Assembly (NCBI GenBank): GCA_017937135.1
Contig: JAGBEE010000013.1
Location: forward strand, 1-32,544
Direction of reading: 5' to 3'
Origin: Clostridia bacterium
GTDB lineage: Bacteria; Bacillota; Clostridia; Oscillospirales; CAG-272
DNA: 32,544 nucleotides
Shown here: positions 1 to 9,873 of the stretch, one piece after another
Numbering within the stretch: the stretch's first letter is position 1
Layout: each line of letters opens with the position of its first letter
Translations under genes and position numbers: made by a program
Notes under the pieces: generated by a model
Seen by the model: the letters and a program-made list of their open reading frames with translations, nothing else
What the model was told of the DNA's origin: nothing
The model's database searches: none

Positions 1-735
1 AACAGGAGTCCATCTTGCGGTAAGGGTGATATTGCCATAGCTACCCGTAGAAATCTCCGTTACTTTGGTTTCACCGTTATACCAACCGTCGAAGGTGTAG
101 CCGAGCTTCTCTAAATCTACAAGGGTAATAGTTTCGCTCTCAATGGTATAAGATATTGCGTTGCTATTATTGGCATCTTTCGTGTTTTCATAGGATATGC
201 TGTATGTAGCCACCTCATATTTTGCATATAACGTAATGGCGCCAGTCGACCCTTTGGATATGGTAGATACTTTATTGGTATAATCTTCGTCAGAATACCA
301 ACCCAAAAAATTATAGCCTTCTTTTTCTGCGTTAGAAAGAGCAAAATCATCCTCCACCGTGTACAGTGCAGGATTATTATGCGATCCACCATTTGCCTCA
401 TAGATTATATCATAAGAAATAAGGTCAAATTTTGCGTAGACAGACATATTGCTTGAAATGGGAGCATCAAGTAAAGAATTTGCAGAAAATGGTTTGCTCC
501 ATACATTTTCATCCCAATACCATCCATCAAAAGAATAACCTGTTTTAACAGGATCTTCCGGAATAGATATAACTTCTTGACCGCTTGTTCCTATGGTAGA
601 ATAATTCTCCCCGTCCACCTTGAAGGTTAAGTCAAAATTCTCAACTTTGTCACCACAGGCAACAAGTGAAAAAACGCTAAAAACAAGCATTATCAAGCAG
701 AGAACTATCGTCGTTAATCGTTTCTTGTTAATCAT
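1..735 (-). CDS. InlB/Listeria-Bacteroides repeat surface lipoprotein (C-terminus beyond window)
   Basis: This is a partial surface lipoprotein; 245 codons are visible and the reading frame is still open at base 1. A good AGGAGG site (745-750) sets the ATG at 733-735. The N-terminus is basic and hydrophobic and ends in a lipobox (L24-V25-A26-C27), so the protein should be lipid-anchored outside the membrane. After it come three repeats of about 70 residues, near residues 28-97, 98-168 and 169 onward, with the GYxFxGWY and YAKF/YAKY signatures of the InlB B-repeat (List_Bact_rpt) family. Such domains occur in adhesins and other surface proteins, so an adhesion or interaction role is inference. 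The only strong promoter seen upstream lies in the invertible segment 860-1034 and currently points away, so expression is probably phase variable. Confidence 0.85.
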   Translation of the reverse strand, partial: MINKKRLTTIVLCLIMLVFSVFSLVACGDKVENFDLTFKVDGENYSTIGTSGQEVISIPEDPVKTGYSFDGWYWDENVWSKPFSANSLLDAPISSNMSVYAKFDLISYDIIYEANGGSHNNPALYTVEDDFALSNAEKEGYNFLGWYSDEDYTNKVSTISKGSTGAITLYAKYEVATYSISYENTKDANNSNAISYTIESETITLVDLEKLGYTFDGWYNGETKVTEISTGSYGNITLTARWTPV

Positions 736-859
736 ATTTTGAAACCTCCTGATTCATTTTACATTGCTTTTGTTTAATTTTTGATTCTGAAATATATATT
801 ATCAACGTGTTTTCACACATTCGTTACCTCCTTATAGATGACTTATTTTCGTTTTATTT

Positions 860-886
860 GAACGCCTATTAGTGTAATAGGTGTTC
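860..886. repeat. Recombination site 1L
   Basis: The site has left arm GAACGCCTATT (860-870), core AGTGT (871-875) and right arm AATAGGTGTTC (876-886). The two arms are inverted copies of each other with one mismatch, the form of a tyrosine recombinase site. The core is the reverse complement of the core in site 1R. Confidence 0.8.
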
Positions 887-965
887 ACAAAACAGAGATT
901 TTATCACCTATTACCGCAAAAATGAACTTTAAGATGCAAAAAATTAAGATATTATAGGAAAAAAC

Positions 966-994
966 TTGAAATTCTAATTATATTATGATATAAT
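966..994 (+). promoter_or_regulatory. Sigma-A promoter inside invertible segment 1
   Basis: The -35 is TTGAAA (966-971) and the -10 is TATAAT (989-994), with a 17-bp spacer. It points right in this assembly and would be antisense to the gene at 1060-1527. After inversion it would drive the lipoprotein gene at 735. Confidence 0.8.
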
Positions 995-1007
995 TATTGT
1001 GTATTCC

Positions 1008-1034
1008 TACCGCCTATTACACTAATAGATGTTT
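1008..1034. repeat. Recombination site 1R
   Basis: Arms TACCGCCTATT (1008-1018) and AATAGATGTTT (1024-1034) surround core ACACT (1019-1023), which is the inverse of the site 1L core. The stretch CCTATTACACTAATAG is the exact reverse complement of the matching part of 1L. Confidence 0.8.
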
Positions 1035-1059
1035 GTTTAATCGCACCTGAAAAAGAGAG

Positions 1060-1527
1060 TTATTCTTCTTCAAGGGCGATATTTTTTATTTCTATTCCTT
1101 TCTTTTCTGCCTTTTTCAAGCAGACAGCTGCACCGCCGTTATCCCATTCCACGTATGCCACGAGAAGGTCGGAGTGTTCCACAAACCACTCGTTTCTCTT
1201 GGTGATGGCGGCTTTATGATGTATTCCATAGAGTTCTTCGGGATACCATATTTCATCGTAGAATTTTTCGAGACAATCCATATTTGCAACGGAATATGGA
1301 ATAACTAAAATCAAGCTGCTGTTTGCCGTGCCGTAGGCTTTCTGCCCCCTCTTGACAGCAGAAGCAACCATTGTGTCAAAATCTCCGTTTCGCCCGACAT
1401 AAAATTCCACATATTCTTTTTTGCGTAGTAGTTCGCTTATTATCCTGTCGAGTTGTTCTTCGACAAAGCGAAAACGGTCAATTTGCCTATGACCGATAAA
1501 GGAAACACGGTATATTTCTCCTATCAT
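1060..1527 (-). CDS. SLOG-family (DUF1273/YpsA-like) Rossmann-fold protein
   Basis: This 155-residue protein resembles the small SLOG family: an opening beta strand with FIGHR (residues 10-14), GRNGDFD (45-51) where a ligand-binding turn is expected, and a closing strand with DNGGA (129-133). SLOG folds bind nucleotides or nucleotide-derived ligands. The exact function is unknown. The ATG at 1525-1527 follows an AGGAAGG-type ribosome binding site. The only strong promoter upstream is in invertible segment 2, now pointing away, so the gene looks OFF in this assembly. No terminator is seen after its stop, so its transcript would run through segment 1 into the lipoprotein gene. Promoter 1 in its present orientation would make antisense RNA across this gene. 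Confidence 0.7.
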   Translation of the reverse strand: MIGEIYRVSFIGHRQIDRFRFVEEQLDRIISELLRKKEYVEFYVGRNGDFDTMVASAVKRGQKAYGTANSSLILVIPYSVANMDCLEKFYDEIWYPEELYGIHHKAAITKRNEWFVEHSDLLVAYVEWDNGGAAVCLKKAEKKGIEIKNIALEEE

Positions 1528-1575
1528 TTTCCGTTTCCTTCCTTCGTTATAGATGGATATTTTACACGCATAATT

Positions 1576-1602
1576 GTACGCCTATTGTTATAATAGGCGT
1601 AC
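1576..1602. repeat. Recombination site 2L
   Basis: Arm GTACGCCTATT (1576-1586), core GTTAT (1587-1591) and arm AATAGGCGTAC (1592-1602). The two 11-bp arms are perfect inverted copies. The arm motif CGCCTATT is the one used in sites 1L and 1R, but the core differs from theirs. Confidence 0.82.
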
Positions 1603-1673
1603 AAAAAATACATAAAAATTCACCTACAAATCGCATAATTGCCTGTTTTTCTTGCGATATATCCCCGAAAATA

Positions 1674-1702
1674 TTGACATATCCCTATAAATGTGATATA
1701 AT
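1674..1702 (+). promoter_or_regulatory. Consensus sigma-A promoter inside invertible segment 2
   Basis: The -35 is TTGACA (1674-1679) and the -10 is TATAAT (1697-1702), with a 17-bp spacer; both hexamers are perfect. It points right, away from the SLOG gene and antisense to the recombinase. Confidence 0.85.
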
Positions 1703-1704
1703 AT

Positions 1705-1731
1705 ATCCCACTATTATAACAATAGATGCTG
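1705..1731. repeat. Recombination site 2R
   Basis: Arms ATCCCACTATT (1705-1715) and AATAGATGCTG (1721-1731) surround core ATAAC (1716-1720), the inverse of the 2L core. Its outer arm shares AATAGATG with site 1R. It ends 10 bp before the recombinase stop codon. Confidence 0.78.
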
Positions 1732-1740
1732 AATAAGGTT

Positions 1741-2670
1741 TTACAACAATTTGCCGAGTTTGTTCATCATCTCTTTCTTGTGTTCCATAAGCGAGTGAAC
1801 ATAGCGGTTAAGGGTTACGGTTGGATTCTTATGCCCGAGTATCTCGGACAGCGTTTTCACGTCCATTCCGCATTCCAGGGCGCGCGTTGCAAAGGTGTGG
1901 CGCAGAGAATGAAAGCCCCGATGCGGTATATCGAGATTCTTCTGCAACGTAGCAAAGGTGCGTTGGTATGATCTGATTGAAATGGGTTTTTCGCCATTCG
2001 ATACAATGTATATCGAGTGGCTTTTCTTTTTAGCTTCACGGAGCAGAGGCATAAACTGTTTCGGGAGAGGGATTGTTCGGATGGAGGATTGTGTTTTCGG
2101 TATATCCGTTATTCTTCCGAATGTACCGTCCTGATTCTTTCCGTCATGGCAGGTCTTGTTCACTCGTAATTCGCCCTTTACGAAGTCAATGTCCGTCCAT
2201 TCAAGTGCAAGCAATTCGCCTATTCGGAGTCCTGTATATAGGCACAGGAAAACCCCGAACAGCTTCGGCTTGTCCTTGCCCATGATATACTGTTCCATCT
2301 TCTTTTGCTCGGCAGAAGAAAAACACTCAACCTTCTTTTCGCCCGTTTTAGGTCGCTTGATTTTATCTGCCGTGTAATCGTTCATATAACCGAGTGCGTA
2401 TGCCGTCTTTAGCGAATTCTGCATCACCGTGATGATTGCGTTTACAGAGTTCGGGGATAGCCCCTTTCCGGTCTTTAAGTTTCCGCTATTGAGTAGTTCC
2501 GTCACAAAGCATTGGAGCGTAAACGGTGTGAGTTCGTTGAGTTCAAGCTCTCCGAGCTTCGGGATAATGTGTTGATTCACGATCTCGCTGTACCGTGTGT
2601 ATGTCCTTTGCTTTGAGGACGGCTGAATATAATTATTGAGCCAATTGATGAGCCATTCTTGATATTTCAT
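1741..2670 (-). CDS. Tyrosine recombinase/integrase, probable promoter invertase
   Basis: The 309-residue protein has a SAM-like core-binding domain (about 1-105) and a tyrosine recombinase catalytic domain (about 115-300). All catalytic residues are present: R149 (TGLRIGE), K192, H254 and R257 (HSLRHTF), H280 (LGHKN) and nucleophile Y290. It lacks the extra N-terminal arm-binding domain of many phage integrases. The ATG follows an AAAGGAG site. The stop lies 10 bp from recombination site 2R, and four sites with shared arms lie within 0.9 kb, so it is the likely enzyme inverting both promoter segments. That is inference: an integrase of the neighbouring degenerate element is the alternative, and both could be true. 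Promoter 2, as now oriented, would produce antisense RNA over its 3' end. Confidence 0.9.
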   Translation of the reverse strand: MKYQEWLINWLNNYIQPSSKQRTYTRYSEIVNQHIIPKLGELELNELTPFTLQCFVTELLNSGNLKTGKGLSPNSVNAIITVMQNSLKTAYALGYMNDYTADKIKRPKTGEKKVECFSSAEQKKMEQYIMGKDKPKLFGVFLCLYTGLRIGELLALEWTDIDFVKGELRVNKTCHDGKNQDGTFGRITDIPKTQSSIRTIPLPKQFMPLLREAKKKSHSIYIVSNGEKPISIRSYQRTFATLQKNLDIPHRGFHSLRHTFATRALECGMDVKTLSEILGHKNPTVTLNRYVHSLMEHKKEMMNKLGKLL

Positions 2671-2889
2671 TGCTGTTCTCCTTTACGTTGATTTTTTGTG
2701 GGCGAATGGGCGAATTTTAATAATAATATTTTACACCTACGCGCAGAAAAAGGCTTGTTCTTTATGTGTACGGCAGAAAGAAAAAAGGTATTGAATTTGC
2801 ATCAACGCCTTTTCTTCTCGTCCGTATTTGCTTTTAAGAAAGCCTCTCTAATAAAAACCTATATATCTTCTTTTCTGCTGTAATCTCTT

Positions 2890-2967
2890 AAAGTGGGTAG
2901 TTCACTTTCTCCTACCATGATGACAGGTACCACCTGCCACCGTATAGGCAGGCTACGCCCTTGGTAG
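2890..2967. other. Hairpin-rich segment, possible structured RNA
   Basis: AAAGTG/CACTTT (2890-2895, 2903-2908) forms a first stem. CTACCA/TGGTAG (2912-2917, 2962-2967) encloses two overlapping alternatives: CAGGT/ACCTG (2924-2928, 2932-2936) or CCTGCC/GGCAGG (2933-2938, 2947-2952). The last two exclude each other, as in a switch. The strand and function are not known. Confidence 0.35.
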
Positions 2968-2999
2968 TGAAGTATAAAATTTCGAGTAATTCCTTGCAA

Positions 3000-3045
3000 C
3001 CCACATTGAAGACCACAGATTTTTCTTTGTATTGTGGGCGTTTTT
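3000..3045 (+). terminator. Possible plus-strand terminator
   Basis: CCCACA (3000-3005) or CCACA (3013-3017) can pair with TGTGGG (3033-3038), followed by five T. It would end a transcript covering the hairpin-rich segment on the plus strand. The stem is short. Confidence 0.35.
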
Positions 3046-3338
3046 CATTTTTAACCCATAGTACCGACTCCATAGGTCATTTACCGACCCACAGTTAATT
3101 TCGGGGAAAAAGTGCGAAAATCCCTTGAAAACAGTCGGCGTTGCCGTCTGTTGTGATGTGCGGCAAGGCGTTTACGACCCAGACGCTTTAACCTGCTTGA
3201 TTTTCGACCCTGCAAAAATCAGAGTTTTTGCTCTCGATCCGTGCTTTCCACACCGTCCGAATTTTGCCCTCATTTTGCCGTTTTCTCGGTCTTTCGGTAC
3301 TACCTCTGCCGAGGGCGTTCTTGTGCTGTTTTGGTCTT

Positions 3339-3366
3339 AAAAAACGCACAGGCTCTGTGCGTTTTC
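3339..3366. terminator. Bidirectional terminator after the 115-residue gene
   Basis: The stem ACGCACAG (3344-3351) pairs with CTGTGCGT (3355-3362) over a 3-base loop, flanked by A and T runs. It lies just past the stop codon of the minus-strand gene at 3374. Confidence 0.75.
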
Positions 3367-3373
3367 CGTTTCC

Positions 3374-3721
3374 TTATTCGTTTAGTTGGGTGTTTGCCTT
3401 ACCCCTGCGACCATTTCGCAAATTTGCCCGAATGTCATCAGCATTTTGAACGGCTCTCGCTGCCTCAAGTCGTTTTGCAAGAGCGGTTTGTTCTTCCTCG
3501 CTAATATCCCCACGGAAGATAATCGTTAGGTATTTCTTCGGGAAAATATAGGTCACACCGCCGTATTTGTTCGTTGCTTTTAGACGGTATAGATCGGGGT
3601 GCTTTTCCATCGCCATCTTGAGCTTCTTTTTTAGTTTTGCGTTGTGCGTATAGACTTCCGCTGCGCTTTCACCCTCGTTAAAGAGGATGATGGTTTCCTG
3701 TTCAATTCTTGTAAGATTCAT
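3374..3721 (-). CDS. Small conserved mobile-element protein, function unknown
   Basis: This 115-residue protein opens with MNLTRIEQETIILFNEGE and has a KKYLTI(I)F segment and a basic C-terminus. It resembles small conserved proteins often carried by Firmicutes integrative and conjugative elements and sometimes mislabelled as chaperones. No function can be assigned. It has no signal peptide or membrane segment, so it should be cytoplasmic. An AGGAGG site precedes the ATG and a strong hairpin follows the stop. A second hairpin lies 25-58 bases upstream of the start. It is probably a leftover of an element next to tRNA-Ser. The family memory is from general knowledge and was not searched. Confidence 0.65.
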   Translation of the reverse strand: MNLTRIEQETIILFNEGESAAEVYTHNAKLKKKLKMAMEKHPDLYRLKATNKYGGVTYIFPKKYLTIIFRGDISEEEQTALAKRLEAARAVQNADDIRANLRNGRRGKANTQLNE

Positions 3722-3745
3722 TTTCTTTCCTCCTGTTTTTTGAAA

Positions 3746-3779
3746 TAAAAAAAGCCGAGGATATTTCTATCACTCGACT
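3746..3779 (-). terminator. Terminator or attenuator upstream of the 115-residue gene
   Basis: On the minus strand GTCGAG (3778-3773) pairs with CTCGGC (3759-3754), followed by a run of seven T. It could end upstream read-through or act as a leader attenuator for the gene starting at 3721. Confidence 0.45.
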
Positions 3780-3925
3780 CAATATGTCTTATTAAATTTT
3801 TTGTTTTCGGGTAGAGCTTTGGGGGCGATTTTTGTTCTCACGGGAGTTCAAATCTATTCAGTATCGGGAAATATCCGCTTTTCATCTACAAAATCGAACT
3901 GTAAAAATCCGCCCCTTAAAAAGCA

Positions 3926-3952
3926 AAAATCCCTTGAAAAATCAAGGGATTT
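3926..3952. terminator. Terminator downstream of tRNA-Ser
   Basis: An 11-bp perfect stem, AAATCCCTTGA (3927-3937) with TCAAGGGATTT (3942-3952), has a 4-base loop. On the minus strand it is followed by T-rich sequence, 31 bases past the tRNA 3' end. Confidence 0.75.
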
Positions 3953-3982
3953 GCGGACGATATCTTTTTCATCGCCCTTTTA

Positions 3983-4070
3983 TGGCGCAGGAAGAGGGAT
4001 TCGAACCCCCGTGGCTTTTGGCCTAACGGTTTTCAAGACCGCCTCGTTGTGACCGCTTCGATATTCCTGC
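3983..4070 (-). tRNA. tRNA-Ser (anticodon UGA)
   Basis: The minus strand reads acceptor GCAGGAA, then anticodon loop CTTGAAA closed by GCGGT/ACCGT, a long variable arm typical of serine, T-loop GGTTCGAATCC, the acceptor return TTCCTGC, a discriminator G and an encoded CCA (3983-3985). The anticodon TGA is at 4033-4035, reading UCA and related serine codons. Length is 88 bases including CCA. A terminator follows at 3926-3952. The 5' end is part of a large palindrome. Confidence 0.93.
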
Positions 4071-4105
4071 ATATATGAATGCTTCTACGCATTCATATAT
4101 GCAGG
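4066..4105. repeat. 17-bp-arm perfect palindrome overlapping the tRNA-Ser 5' end
   Basis: CCTGCATATATGAATGC (4066-4082) is the exact reverse complement of 4089-4105, with a 6-base loop. The first five bases belong to the mature tRNA, so in a precursor the leader could pair with the acceptor strand. Confidence 0.85.
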
Positions 4106-4147
4106 GCAAAGAGATGTGGCTTGTGAATTTATTTCACAATTCGCTTC
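4081..4147. repeat. 67-bp direct repeat, copy 1
   Basis: Matches 4259-4325 at 65 of 67 bases, with a period of 178 bp. It begins inside the tRNA-proximal palindrome and contains a TTGTGAA/TTCACAA hairpin. Confidence 0.9.
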
Positions 4148-4258
4148 GTATGCGAGGCTATATCGTCTGGGAGCTCGCTCACAAGCGATAGCCGATGCAC
4201 AAAGCTCTGCTTTGCTATTCCTGTAATGATGCGTATGCATTATTTGTTTTTTTATTTT

Positions 4259-4325
4259 GCTTCTACGCATTCATATATGCAGGGCAAAGAGATGTGGCTT
4301 GTGAATTTATTTCACAACTTGCTTC
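4259..4325. repeat. 67-bp direct repeat, copy 2
   Basis: Near-identical partner of 4081-4147 with two substitutions near the right end. Only half of the palindrome is present here. It suggests a segmental duplication or a small REP/MITE-like element. Confidence 0.9.
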
Positions 4326-4611
4326 TTTACTGCTTTTTATGATGCGTTTAGCATTATTTTTGCTATCTTTTTCAAAATTGCATAGATATGATAGCATATT
4401 TTTTGTTCTGTGTCAATATGTTTTTTTAATTATTTTATTTTGTCTCATTTGCTTTTATAATTTCAAAGCCTGTGTGTTGACTTTACTTAACAAACATAAC
4501 AAAATATTTTTAATGCGACAAAACTCGTGTTGGTGTTGATATTATATTGGGTTTTTGATTCAACAAATAAAATTTCACCCGCTTTTTATTAAAACGTATT
4601 ATAACGTTATA

Positions 4612-4640
4612 TTGCAAATTCCTTTTGCGTATGATATAAT
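4612..4640 (+). promoter_or_regulatory. Promoter of the 7-TM protein gene
   Basis: The -35 is TTGCAA (4612-4617) and the -10 is TATAAT (4635-4640) with a 17-bp spacer, 47 bases before the chosen start codon. Confidence 0.65.
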
Positions 4641-4687
4641 TTTCATGGAATAATGCATTAAGCAACCTTATTAAATTGGAGGAATTC

Positions 4688-5947
4688 ATGAAAGAAGACT
4701 TTTATTATAAGCTCAAGGAACTCTTTGCTGAAATTCGCCTTGTTTTCCAAGAAAGTATTTTGGATAATAGCAAGCTAAATGCACTTACGAATAATCTAAA
4801 GACGTCGAGAAAGCATATTTTAAAACATGCCAAGAAAAAAGAGCGTACGCTGTTACTCTATTGCATAGACACTCTTTTTGAAGTAATAAAAGAGAACAAC
4901 AAGGAAAAAATATCTAATTTTGCAGATTTAGCTCATAATATTCCTGATATATATTTGGGCAAACGCAATTTTTATTCTTTTCACGAGGAAATCAAACTAT
5001 TTAGAGAAAAATACGGTGAAGCTTATTTCAAGAATATGAATAATATTTATCCTTATTTTTCTAAAAAAGCTCCTAAGAACGCATTACAATTCTTCTTTCC
5101 AGAATCCGACGAAGCCTTCAAAGAACAGCATCCGGTTGGATATTGGATATTGGTTATCTGTGGTATAACGGCCTTTCTTCTTCCTTTAATTATTTTCTCT
5201 ATATACATATCCCATTTTGATCAGGACCAAGGCGTTGGTGGATGGCCAGCGCTTGCTATTGTAGGGTGCTTGATTATAGGCATTGGCCTTTTCAATATAG
5301 TTGCTGCTTTTATTCATCAGTATCTTGGCCATAAATTAACCGCAATTTGTTTGCTTGGTGGCAGCGCTCTCGTCGCGCTTTCAATATTTATGGTGAATAA
5401 TCCACATCTTTATAACCAAAATGTTTCTATTTATTATTTTGTTTCTCTTTTTATGATGCTTTTACCTGCTCTTTTCTATGTATATTTTCGTTTTAGCGTT
5501 GGCTCTTGGCTGAAACGCTCGCGACGCATCAGTAATTCAAAATTTGAAAATTTAACCAAGGGCAAGAAAAACTTTTGGTGGTACGTAGCATTACATAAAG
5601 AAGTGAATTTAGGTATTCTTTATTATATAAATAAAGCTTTTACAATTCTTTATGTATCGCTTTTTGCTCTAACCTTGCTTACAGGTCTTATAAAGGAAAT
5701 GTCCTTGATTCTTTGCCCCTTGAATATTTTACTTTACCTGCTAACGGCGTTTATGGTTATATTTTCAAGGATTCAAGATAATTTGGATTTTCACAAAAAA
5801 CCGTTTGTTATTTTTGCAAGAAGCAGAAATAAAGGAATAGATTCTATCATATTTGACTTGTTTGCTGTGTTTTTTGTTTTAGCAATGGCTTATGTAAATT
5901 TAATGCTTGCCACAAGTATTTGGGGAATAGAATTGCCACATTTTTAA
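4688..5947 (+). CDS. Polytopic membrane protein, function unknown
   Basis: The 419-residue protein is not recognised. Residues 1-145 are hydrophilic and helical, followed by about seven membrane segments near 152-175, 186-209, 217-236, 248-269, 316-335, 340-360 and 385-408. A basic loop of about 45 residues lies between the fourth and fifth. I chose ATG 4688 because GGAGG (4678-4682) lies five bases upstream. A longer frame from TTG 4676 would overlap that ribosome binding site. It has its own promoter (4612-4640). The next gene starts 84 bases after its stop and could be cotranscribed, since no hairpin is seen between them. No catalytic motif or transporter signature is visible, so transport or signalling would be guesswork. 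Confidence 0.75.
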   Translation: MKEDFYYKLKELFAEIRLVFQESILDNSKLNALTNNLKTSRKHILKHAKKKERTLLLYCIDTLFEVIKENNKEKISNFADLAHNIPDIYLGKRNFYSFHEEIKLFREKYGEAYFKNMNNIYPYFSKKAPKNALQFFFPESDEAFKEQHPVGYWILVICGITAFLLPLIIFSIYISHFDQDQGVGGWPALAIVGCLIIGIGLFNIVAAFIHQYLGHKLTAICLLGGSALVALSIFMVNNPHLYNQNVSIYYFVSLFMMLLPALFYVYFRFSVGSWLKRSRRISNSKFENLTKGKKNFWWYVALHKEVNLGILYYINKAFTILYVSLFALTLLTGLIKEMSLILCPLNILLYLLTAFMVIFSRIQDNLDFHKKPFVIFARSRNKGIDSIIFDLFAVFFVLAMAYVNLMLATSIWGIELPHF

Positions 5948-6031
5948 CTTTAACATATGTGTAATTCTATATATTGCCATTCTTAACAAATCCCACAATG
6001 TGCATAAATTTTAAAAAATTCGGAGGTTTCT

Positions 6032-7051
6032 ATGCTTAACTCTTCTCCTGTGGAGCTTCATAAAAGGCTATTTGATAAAATAACCCCCTCTCTTAGATGG
6101 GACGAAAAAACACCAATCGATAAGTGGCGCATTACCTGTCAAGAAAAGCTATCGGAGCTTTTAGGCCTTGACACATTTGAAAAATGCGAGGCTGATTTAA
6201 AAATTGTCAGCGAAAGCACCCTTGGCTTATGCAAGCATATACATTTTCTTGTGCAGACAGAAAAGGATTACTATGTTAATGCCCACCTTCTTGTTCCCAA
6301 AGGAATAAGTGAGAAATTACCTCTTTGCATGGGCTTACAGGGACACGTCAGCGGTGCGCATATTGGCTTGGGAATCGAAAAATTTGATTATGACAAAATG
6401 TATATAAACGAGGACCACTTCGACTACTCTAAGCAGTGCATTGATTATGGCTTTGTTGGCTTGAGCATTGAGCAGCGTGGCTATGGCGAAAATGGTGGTG
6501 ACACCGAAACAGGACACACAAAATGCACGCACGCACAGACAGGCGCTTATTTACTTGGACGTACGCTAATTGGCGAAAGAGTATGGGACATACAAAGAGT
6601 GCTCGATGCCATTTTGGATTATTTTGGAGATATTATTACAATGAAGGGCTCGTTGCTTATTGGCACATCGGGTGGTGGCACAGCGACCTATTACACCGCC
6701 TGCCTTGAAAATCGCTTTGAGGTGTTTTTGCCCGGCGTTGCTCTATGTAGCTTTGCTGACTCAATAGTAGCGCTTGATCATTGTATTTGCAACTATATTC
6801 CAAATATTGCAAAATACTTCGATATGGGAGATTTGGCAGTTATGATAGCGCCCAAAAAGCTAATCATTTTAAGTGCAACCAATGATAGGTGGTTCCCAAT
6901 TGAGGGCGCTAAGCGTGAATACGAGCGCATAGAAAAAATCTACAAGCACTTAGGCGCGCAAAATAACCTGCGCTTTGTCATTGGAAACGGTGGACATAGC
7001 TTCTATCCAAACGAGGTGTGGCAAGCCATAGGCGAGCTTTTAGAAAAATAA
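6032..7051 (+). CDS. Alpha/beta hydrolase, acetyl-ester esterase-like
   Basis: The 339-residue protein has the core of an alpha/beta hydrolase: nucleophile elbow GTSGGG with S213, a likely acid D285 (ATNDRWFP) and H322 (NGGHSFYP), giving a full Ser-Asp-His triad. An oxyanion region GLQGHVSG is near residue 101, and ERGYG-like EQRGYGENGG near 147-156 is typical of Abhydrolase_7/acetyl xylan esterase relatives. There is no signal peptide, so it acts in the cytoplasm. CGGAGG precedes the ATG. A bidirectional terminator follows. Beside the sugar-degradation genes, deacetylation of imported oligosaccharides is a reasonable guess, but the substrate cannot be read from the sequence. Confidence 0.8.
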   Translation: MLNSSPVELHKRLFDKITPSLRWDEKTPIDKWRITCQEKLSELLGLDTFEKCEADLKIVSESTLGLCKHIHFLVQTEKDYYVNAHLLVPKGISEKLPLCMGLQGHVSGAHIGLGIEKFDYDKMYINEDHFDYSKQCIDYGFVGLSIEQRGYGENGGDTETGHTKCTHAQTGAYLLGRTLIGERVWDIQRVLDAILDYFGDIITMKGSLLIGTSGGGTATYYTACLENRFEVFLPGVALCSFADSIVALDHCICNYIPNIAKYFDMGDLAVMIAPKKLIILSATNDRWFPIEGAKREYERIEKIYKHLGAQNNLRFVIGNGGHSFYPNEVWQAIGELLEK

Positions 7052-8497: not shown

Positions 8498-9873
8498 TAT
8501 AATGTAACTCCATCCTTAAAAATTGCTATTTCGCAAAAACCGTTTTCCTCGTTTTTCGCTTCCTTGCCTGAGGCAATTTGCAAAACAAGCTCCAATAGCT
8601 CATTTGTCATATCTGCCATTTTAGCTCCATCAAGAATAGGCGAGGCATCAAAATCTATCCATTTCTGCTTTTTTGTTGCAAGCGCCTTATTAGTTGATAT
8701 TTTTACAGTTGGCACGCCTGTGCCGAGCGGCGTTCCTCTGCCCGTGGTGAATAAAATCATATGTGCGCCACACGCCATAAGATTTGTAGCTGCCACAATA
8801 TCATTGCCAGGGCCATTAAGGAGCGAAAGACCATTTTTCTTAACCATCTCCCCATAATTAAGAACGTCAACAACAGGGGAAAGGCCTCCCTTTTGTACAC
8901 ATCCAAGGCTCTTTTCCTCAAGAGTTGTTATTCCACCCTCCTTGTTTCCCGGCGAGGGGTTTTCGTAAATTACCTGATTATGATTTGTAAAATATTCCTT
9001 AAAGTCGTTTATTAGCTTGACAGTTTTCTCAAAAACCTCATAGCTTACGCATCTTTCCATAAGTAAATGCTCTGCGCCAAACATCTCGGGCACCTCGGTT
9101 AAAACACAGCCTGCGCCATATGAAACCATTTTATCGCAAAGACTACCAACTAAGGGGTTAGCACTAATTCCACTATAAGCGTCGCTTCCACCACACTTTA
9201 AGCCAATACGCAAGCGTGAGATGCTAATTTTCTCTCTTTTAAAGGTGCTTGTGTACTCCTTTAGCTCGTTAATTAACGACACTCCCTTGGCAATTTCATC
9301 ATCCTCGTCTTGACAATTAAGAAATTTCACTCTTTTTTCATTGTACTCGCCAAGAGTCTTTTTTAATTCCTTTATATTGTTATTCTCGCAGCCCAAGCCA
9401 ACCACCAAAACGCCACCTGCGTTTGGATGCTTTATCATTCCACAAAGAATTTTCTTTGTTATTTCGTGGTCGCCACCAAGCTGAGAGCACCCATATGGAT
9501 GGGAAAAATACTTAGCTCCTGTTTTTTCAGCAAGCCTTTGTGCCACCTTGTTTACACAGCCGACTGTGTTTACTATCCATATGTCGTTGCGTATGCCGAC
9601 ATCGCCGTTTTCACGCACATAGCCATCAAAGGTTAAGTTGCTCTGTACTCTTTTTATGCCATAGTCCTTATAGGAATATGTATATTCAAGCGTGCCACTT
9701 AAATTTGTTTTCAGGTTATGGGTGTGCACGTGCTCGCCTTTTTTAATATCAGCTATGGCGTGTCCTATTGGCGCGCCATATTTAATGATATTTTCGCCAC
9801 ATTTTATGTCGCACAGGGCATATTTGTGCCCGTTTTCGCGAATTTCTACATTATCATTTATATGAATTTGCAT
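8497..9873 (-). CDS. uxaA: Altronate dehydratase
   Basis: The 458-residue protein has an N-terminal SAF domain (about 1-90, including GHAIADIKKGEHVHTHNL) and a C-terminal GD_AH domain with GYVRENGDVGIRND, NTVGCVNKVAQ, GLKCGGSDAYSGISANP and TTGRGTPLGTG. These mark the full-length UxaA type, an iron-dependent enzyme that dehydrates D-altronate to 2-keto-3-deoxygluconate. It starts 6 bases after uxaB ends and overlaps the uxaC start by one base. A related galactarate dehydratase is the main alternative, but the presence of uxaB and uxaC favours altronate. Confidence 0.93.
   Translation of the reverse strand: MQIHINDNVEIRENGHKYALCDIKCGENIIKYGAPIGHAIADIKKGEHVHTHNLKTNLSGTLEYTYSYKDYGIKRVQSNLTFDGYVRENGDVGIRNDIWIVNTVGCVNKVAQRLAEKTGAKYFSHPYGCSQLGGDHEITKKILCGMIKHPNAGGVLVVGLGCENNNIKELKKTLGEYNEKRVKFLNCQDEDDEIAKGVSLINELKEYTSTFKREKISISRLRIGLKCGGSDAYSGISANPLVGSLCDKMVSYGAGCVLTEVPEMFGAEHLLMERCVSYEVFEKTVKLINDFKEYFTNHNQVIYENPSPGNKEGGITTLEEKSLGCVQKGGLSPVVDVLNYGEMVKKNGLSLLNGPGNDIVAATNLMACGAHMILFTTGRGTPLGTGVPTVKISTNKALATKKQKWIDFDASPILDGAKMADMTNELLELVLQIASGKEAKNEENGFCEIAIFKDGVTL

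Follow-up and report, generated by a model that had tools for sequence, protein, structure and literature searches.

A locus carrying one tyrosine recombinase gene and two candidate invertible promoters whose sites share arms and differ in their cores

Organization of the locus

The DNA analysed here, hereafter referred to as the window, is a stretch of 32,544 nucleotides (GenBank assembly GCA_017937135.1, contig JAGBEE010000013.1, positions 1 to 32,544) and corresponds to contig C15 of a Clostridia bacterium genome of 1.85 Mb in 42 contigs. The features of interest are listed in Table 1. Three genes, encoding a tyrosine recombinase, a SLOG-fold protein and a lipoprotein-type protein, lie on the minus strand, and two pairs of 27-bp sites are placed among them. 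A preliminary description, made from the sequence alone, had proposed that these sites constitute two invertible promoters with shared arms, different cores and one adjacent recombinase. All four sites were found to be present, and each pair is inverted. It was also verified that each pair has a core of its own, AGTGT/ACACT in switch 1 and GTTAT/ATAAC in switch 2, with a centre of 15–16 bp that is common within the pair. The complete recombinase gene adjoining the last site was recovered as well, ending 9 bp from that site. The catalytic signature of tyrosine recombinases is R-HxxR-H-Y, and the protein carries it in the strings TGLRIGE at 146, HSLRHTFAT at 254 and LGHKNPTVTLNRY at 278. The labels given to the two other genes held: fold comparison supported the SLOG Rossmann-like fold, and Pfam supported the InlB repeats of the lipoprotein.

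Table 1 Coordinates of the features in the window
Feature	Position	Strand	Remarks
Switch 1 target: lipoprotein-type protein, InlB/Flg_new repeats	1..735	-	PF09479 4.7e-34; 3' end lost at the contig end
Switch 1 outer accessory arm CATCTAT	834..840	-	19 bp outside the gene-proximal site, by the ribosome-binding site of the lipoprotein gene
Switch 1 gene-proximal recombination site	860..886		7-bp matched centre T-AGTGT-A at 870-876
Switch 1 invertible segment	887..1007		between the sites; predicted to invert
Switch 1 inner accessory arm CACCTAT	905..911	+	18 bp inside the gene-proximal site
Switch 1 promoter TTGAAA-17-TATAAT	966..994	+	directed away from the lipoprotein gene (OFF)
Switch 1 distal recombination site, inverted copy	1008..1034		
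Switch 2 target: 155-aa SLOG-fold protein, YpsA/ShosA/DprA-like	1060..1527	-	SLOG by fold
Switch 2 outer accessory arm CATCTAT	1549..1555	-	20 bp outside the gene-proximal site
Switch 2 gene-proximal recombination site, core GTTAT	1576..1602		both 11-bp arms fully complementary
Switch 2 invertible segment	1603..1704		between the sites; predicted to invert
Switch 2 inner accessory arm CACCTAC (6/7)	1621..1627	+	18 bp inside the gene-proximal site
Switch 2 promoter TTGACA-17-TATAAT	1674..1702	+	directed away from the SLOG gene (OFF)
Switch 2 distal recombination site, inverted copy	1705..1731		
Tyrosine recombinase, 309 aa, SAM-like core-binding domain and catalytic domain	1741..2670	-	PF00589 E 2.2e-28

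The preliminary description had also stated that near-perfect sigma-A promoters drive the two target genes. A strong promoter indeed exists inside each pair; however, both promoters are directed away from their targets, that is, both switches are OFF as assembled. Each switch has its promoter enclosed by inverted repeats and adjoins a gene that could be driven after a flip, which is the arrangement of an invertible promoter (inverton). Three features had been overlooked: the OFF state of both switches, the accessory arms, and the fact that the architecture belongs to a family rather than being unique.

Two further observations were made in and around the cassette. The −10 box of switch 2 (region 1674–1731) ends 13 bp from the core, as compared with 22–26 bp in most relatives, and the ON transcript would therefore begin at the site's edge. 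A tRNA-Ser (TGA) lies upstream of the recombinase gene, at 3983–4070, with a repeated and inverted stretch around it (4066–4105, 4258–4283).

Switches beside related recombinase genes

Species-representative genomes were searched for relatives of the recombinase. At E ≤ 1e-75 they were found in 39 of 395 genomes in a draw from the same family; an order-wide draw provided them in 8 of 394 genomes, all of which were from the window's own family. No relatives were found in viral contigs, and the phage and plasmid matches all had identities below 60%, the best among the matches listed being 37.8%. From the 64 loci that were read, the removal of 4 exact duplicates left 60 unique loci, and 58 of these, the window included, had enough DNA to be scanned. 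An inverted site pair behind the recombinase stop codon was assigned in 41 of the 58 loci; these 41 switches were selected manually among the scan results, core identity being given weight, and near-copies (L049/L050/L058 and L068/L069/L070) are included. The scan background, obtained from 265 shuffled regions, had a 99th percentile of 21.0 and a maximum of 23.5. Three accepted loci (L067, L069 and L136) are not above this percentile and were retained on the basis of homology with their neighbours, and L070 was placed by homology. The switch is located at most 65 bp from the stop codon in 38 of the 41 loci, the greater distances being those of L068, L070 and L135.

No switch was assigned, by eye, in the other 17 loci, 4 of which end within 320 bp of the gene. 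When 14 of these 17 were scanned more widely, L054 and L133 did seem to have a switch; both are kept outside all counts. The two sites of L054 have the same core, GTGAT, and are 311 bp apart, which is beyond the range of the first scan, and their score equals the best of 20 shuffles. Those of L133 have unlike cores (TGAAT/CGAAT) in the scan frame and equal cores (ATGTA) after a five-base shift. In L124, a lone, fully palindromic site with the core AGACC occurs 122 bp past the recombinase stop codon with no visible partner, and it is perhaps a dead switch.

The inner promoter exceeded the 95th percentile of shuffled segments in 39 of the 41 switches. As for its orientation, it is directed toward the recombinase (OFF) in 39 switches and toward the gene in two (L064 and L067). 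The second switch is OFF as well in the window, L045 and L053, as judged by eye from the sequence for the latter two.

The arm motif was also sought directly, as the preliminary description had suggested. The pattern CTATTN5AATAG, with free cores and a spacing of 101–161 bp, occurred as 4 pairs in 3 of 194 genomes: three pairs lie directly behind a recombinase of the window's family, and the fourth is switch 1 of the window, behind the SLOG gene. The window's genome holds only its two pairs, and two relatives hold one each. Twenty further genomes, picked for holding the recombinase, provided 2 pairs in 2 genomes, and all six pairs have identical cores. The control pattern, read backwards, occurred as no pair in either the 194 genomes or the 20 recombinase-holding genomes. 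Single sites are not enriched in the window's genome: 13 were found, 4 of them being the window sites, versus 10 for the control.

Contig ends near a switch, taken as a sign of mixed orientation, showed no clear excess among the 60 unique loci (7 versus 3). At most 400 bp follow the recombinase stop codon in L071, L108, L110, L118, L123, L129 and L134, and equally little precedes the start in L052, L053 and L126. In genome G194, three recombinase copies occur on contigs C3, C7 and C23, and two of them are at most 40 bp from the contig end on the switch side. The contig of L049 (JAQVPY010000088.1) is labelled Bacteroidales, and its recombinase gene is about 96% identical to that of the Clostridia MAG locus L058; the label is probably a binning error.

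The targets across the family include SLOG, surface and defence-like proteins. The SLOG protein of the window had no match in PADLOC, and that search gave a weak ShosA match for L114 (E 0.0021). In L051, L062 and L111, the first gene past the switch encodes a protein of 73–91 aa with a common motif like KxxMNRxFR...PYPE.

Arms and cores of the sites

For an assessment of the cores, a core-blind selection was made, in which the core was left out of the site choice and the threshold was the 99th percentile of 1,100 shuffles. This selection was passed by 26 of 55 loci, and the five-base cores were identical between the partner sites in 25 of the 26 pairs. There are 22 distinct cores among them, and cores of different loci agreed in 8 of 650 ordered comparisons. 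The earlier assertion that partner sites need core identity is supported by these pairs, which were found without using the core. In the close clade, the seven central positions, T-NNNNN-A, agree within the pair in all 27 switches (a set from which two near-copies had been dropped and whose selection did use the core), and the agreement drops farther out; the outer arm bases often differ between the two sites of one pair. A sharing of the overlap sequence between partner sites, as expected for a tyrosine recombinase, was accordingly found in both sets. These features suggest a strand-exchange overlap of 7 bp, T-NNNNN-A, with 10-bp arms, and such a 10-7-10 plan fits better than the 11-5-11 plan originally given for the sites.

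The arms and the cores behave differently with respect to the enzyme. In the 41 switches, arm similarity follows recombinase identity (Mantel rho 0.668, a value reached by none of 500 permutations); for core similarity no such tracking is seen (Mantel rho −0.078, 434 of 500 permutations). The original proposal, that shared arms let one enzyme serve several switches and the cores act as addresses of the pairs, is well supported by these sequence comparisons.

The sole mismatched core-blind pair is that of L050 (AGTGC versus AGCAC), whose recombinase gene (4853–5782 of the locus) has a stop at codon 99. Its near-copies L049 and L058 have intact recombinase genes and matched cores. Mismatched cores beside a broken recombinase are what a pairing requirement predicts, in a single case. 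Some tyrosine recombinases, those of the Tn916 type, tolerate unlike cores. We count this tolerance, as well as the mismatch of L133 in the scan frame, against the address model. It is also what would favour a single coupled system in which the cores are irrelevant and the four sites, all with common arms, recombine with one another, giving deletions and larger inversions. The pair-matched cores of the core-blind set, with the one mismatch at a locus whose recombinase is broken, argue against such cross-recombination, which we regard as the least probable of the alternatives considered in this study.

Loci with two switches

A search for further pairs in 506,162 bp of the 41 loci found switch 1 of the window, second switches in L045 and L053, and a hit in L116 that was judged to be due to chance (11/14 arm matches). 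In L045, the first switch has the core GTCGT; the second has the core ATTGT and lies after a SLOG gene and before an HKD-Snf2 helicase gene (PADLOC C3a139, E 4.7e-120). This second switch (region 2776–6311) thus fronts the helicase of a candidate defence system, and the switched SLOG gene precedes it. The two switches of L053 have the cores ATGAT and AAAAT. All three two-switch loci therefore have cores that differ between the switches and match within each pair; taken alone, this is weak evidence, because unrelated cores nearly always differ. The inner DNA of the first and second switches is 76% identical in L045 and 85% in L053, which indicates that these switches are duplications and that the core changed in both partner sites. 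The core change in them is no greater than the general divergence, so that selection for difference is not supported. The two switches of the window are unlike each other, with an inner DNA identity of 41% versus 36% for shuffled sequences.

These data bear on the possibility that the two switches have separate enzymes, the adjacent recombinase acting on switch 2 alone and a different one on switch 1. About 700 bp separate switch 1 from the recombinase gene, no recombinase of its own accompanies it, and the genome holds six recombinase matches, the window enzyme included. Nevertheless, switch 1 has the CTATT arms of the window's clade, and arms track the enzyme. The genome's closest other recombinase (contig C29, 49% identical) has its own switch with other arms (GTGCAC). 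Furthermore, the layout of one enzyme with two switches is repeated in L045 and L053. Separate recombinases are consequently very unlikely in our estimation, if the least unlikely of the alternatives. The layout and common arms of the window, L045 and L053 would fit one recombinase serving several switches, as in the RecV type, and the window enzyme would then act on switch 1 as well.

Inversion in nature

The preliminary description had named orientation differences between related genomes as a test. Such a difference was found for a sibling switch, L067, which is located on contig C29 of the window's genome: it is inverted relative to L068, L069 and L070 in three related genomes. The inner segment of L067 is identical to that of L070 at 111 of 120 positions when flipped, as compared with 48 of 170 columns when unflipped; the corresponding values are 103/120 and 51/170 for L068, and 108/120 and 49/170 for L069. 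The outer half-sites and flanks of L067 are collinear with those of the relatives. This finding indicates that the recombinase family inverts promoters in nature; the evidence comes from a sibling whose arms differ and whose recombinase is 49% identical. Among the genomes compared, neither window switch was found in a flipped copy, and the homologous CTATT-arm switches compared (L045/L045b/L047 and L049/L050/L058) are in a single orientation, with no inversion difference. The expectation of orientation differences was therefore realized for the sibling, but not among the CTATT-arm switches compared. The L067 switch itself (sites at 8910–9064 on the reverse-complemented locus, arms GTGCAC) is in the ON orientation, in which it would drive a 1672-aa lipoprotein with InlB/BspA repeats.

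The strong predominance of one orientation (39 of 41 OFF) would also be expected from a nearly static promoter. A static promoter between terminator hairpins, in which no inversion takes place and the palindromic sites shield the recombinase gene and its neighbour, could account for this bias, for the palindromy of the sites and for the T runs that follow several of them. In addition, the outer arms pair better within the site as assembled than as flipped (24 better, 10 equal and 4 worse, n = 38, p 5.5e-5, with a mild bias since the frame along the diagonal was chosen using palindromy); for all 41 switches, the pairing was better OFF in 27, equal in 7 and worse in 7. However, the loop of a hairpin need not match that of another, yet nearly all core-blind pairs have identical inverted cores, and the sibling switch is inverted between genomes. 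The hairpin energy of the promoter transcript shows no difference between the orientations (p 0.16, with the OFF form the more stable in 22 of 41), and no T run follows the gene-proximal sites in the window. We therefore think it very improbable that the promoters are static, this possibility standing between the coupled system and separate recombinases.

Accessory arms

Additional copies of the arm came out when the switches were aligned on the gene-proximal site. Their consensus is C-R-Y-C-T-A-T. The outer copy lies 18–20 bp outside the gene-proximal site, in several cases beside the ribosome-binding site; the inner one is a mirror copy 17–19, mostly 18, bp inside it. In the close clade (n = 27), 12 switches have the inner arm, 18 have the outer arm and 12 have both, the two switches of the window being among those with both. 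Shuffled flanks had means of 0.27 (inner) and 0.21 (outer) with a maximum of 3 in 300 shuffles. At the distal site of the same 27 switches, no inner arm and one outer arm were found, and none had both. The pattern of outer arm plus site occurred in 2 of 395 genomes, both at switches of the family, and the control occurred in none. The signal is seen only in such position-aligned tests: with per-locus shuffling, matches to 9 bases of the arm past the gene-proximal site reached p < 0.05 in only 4 of 42 cases.

RNA pairing between accessory arms and site arms was considered and set aside: no covariation was found in a test of low power (1:2, 20/28 versus 20.9 shuffled; 3:4, 29/36 versus 29.2). 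Recombinase binding is hence the better guess. Inversion of the segment would carry the inner arm along and make the ON arrangement unlike the OFF one. Our hypothesis is that the accessory arms bias the direction of the switch toward OFF, which is consistent with the observed predominance of OFF. An analogous precedent is FimE, whose direction depends on the sequence beside the repeats, according to the accessible part of the source (PMC6083910).

Proposed mechanism and implications

We infer that the window segments invert, and a cassette combining one tyrosine recombinase with two invertible promoters, with the arms as the key for the enzyme and the cores as addresses, is in our judgement very probably the right explanation of the locus. 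In this cassette, all four sites would be bound by the recombinase at their constant arms, which read about C-R-Y-C-T-A-T-T and often carry GTTC/GTAC on the outside. Strand exchange would take place across the 7-bp centre, the middle five bases being free but equal in the partners, so that a site would pair only with its own partner. In the OFF state a promoter faces the recombinase side, and inversion would turn it ON by pointing it at the SLOG or lipoprotein gene. The unlike cores would keep the two switches apart and guard the SLOG gene from deletion between directly repeated sites; probably, the cores tell the switches apart so that the two genes switch independently. The extra arms flank the gene-proximal site only, and as the inner copy would move with the segment, the OFF and ON complexes would differ, which could bias the switch to OFF.

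A broader proposal combines multiplexing by heterospecific sites with direction control: arms would be keys and cores addresses, modules would be duplicated and re-addressed, and two accessory recombinase-binding arms around the gene-proximal site alone would make the OFF and ON synapses differ and keep the population mostly OFF. We put this forward tentatively, as possible rather than probable. If the arm and core rule applies, the arms predict which recombinase flips which switch and the cores predict which sites pair, both being readable from sequence alone. Core-addressed sites would offer short orthogonal sites of natural origin, and a one-direction bias of a single inversion enzyme becomes testable through the accessory arms. 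Judging by the targets (SLOG proteins, the HKD-Snf2 helicase and surface repeats), defence and surface traits may be phase-variable in uncultured gut Clostridia.

Comparison with known systems

Heterospecific lox sites for Cre have constant arms and a variable spacer, and only those with matching spacers recombine. That system is engineered, whereas the rule for the window's family was read from natural loci. Mpi is a serine recombinase; the window enzyme matches PF00589, the tyrosine type, and so is not an Mpi-type invertase. The published systems below are compared as far as the accessible parts of the cited papers describe them. Mpi of Bacteroides fragilis resembles the window in that one enzyme serves at least 13 switches with a common 10-bp consensus (PMC5386303). 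RecV of Clostridioides difficile is likewise one tyrosine recombinase with several switches, cwpV and flagellar (PMC5386303, PMC7446863). The 2017 paper on RecV describes two repeats and flanking half-sites without recognisable identity (PMC5386303); the window sites, in contrast, have common arms and differ only in the core. XerC of Ureaplasma parvum is also one tyrosine recombinase that binds partly identical repeats, at mba and UU172, inversion having been shown for mba; it inverts genes, whereas promoters would be inverted in the window, and the role of the core is not analysed in the accessible part of that paper (PMC3599477).

In the accessible part of the literature searched, no tyrosine recombinase with common arms and pair-matched unlike cores, or with extra arm copies, was found, and this is weak evidence of novelty. 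The system of FimB/FimE and fimS, with hyxS and ipuS, involves tyrosine recombinases that flip promoters, as proposed for the window; however, several enzymes act on several switches there, and extra arm copies at a fixed spacing are not described in the part of the paper available (PMC6083910). A likeness also exists to the invertons of gut bacteria, which have a promoter between short inverted repeats, a recombinase nearby and surface-protein targets, and whose survey includes an integrase-associated group (139) consisting mostly of Firmicutes_A invertons (PMC11892184). That survey groups the invertons by whole-repeat similarity, and its accessible part does not describe an arm/core split, pair-matched cores or accessory arms (PMC11892184). 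Invertible promoters are known, and core addressing at the scale of a family, together with the accessory arms, appears to be new.
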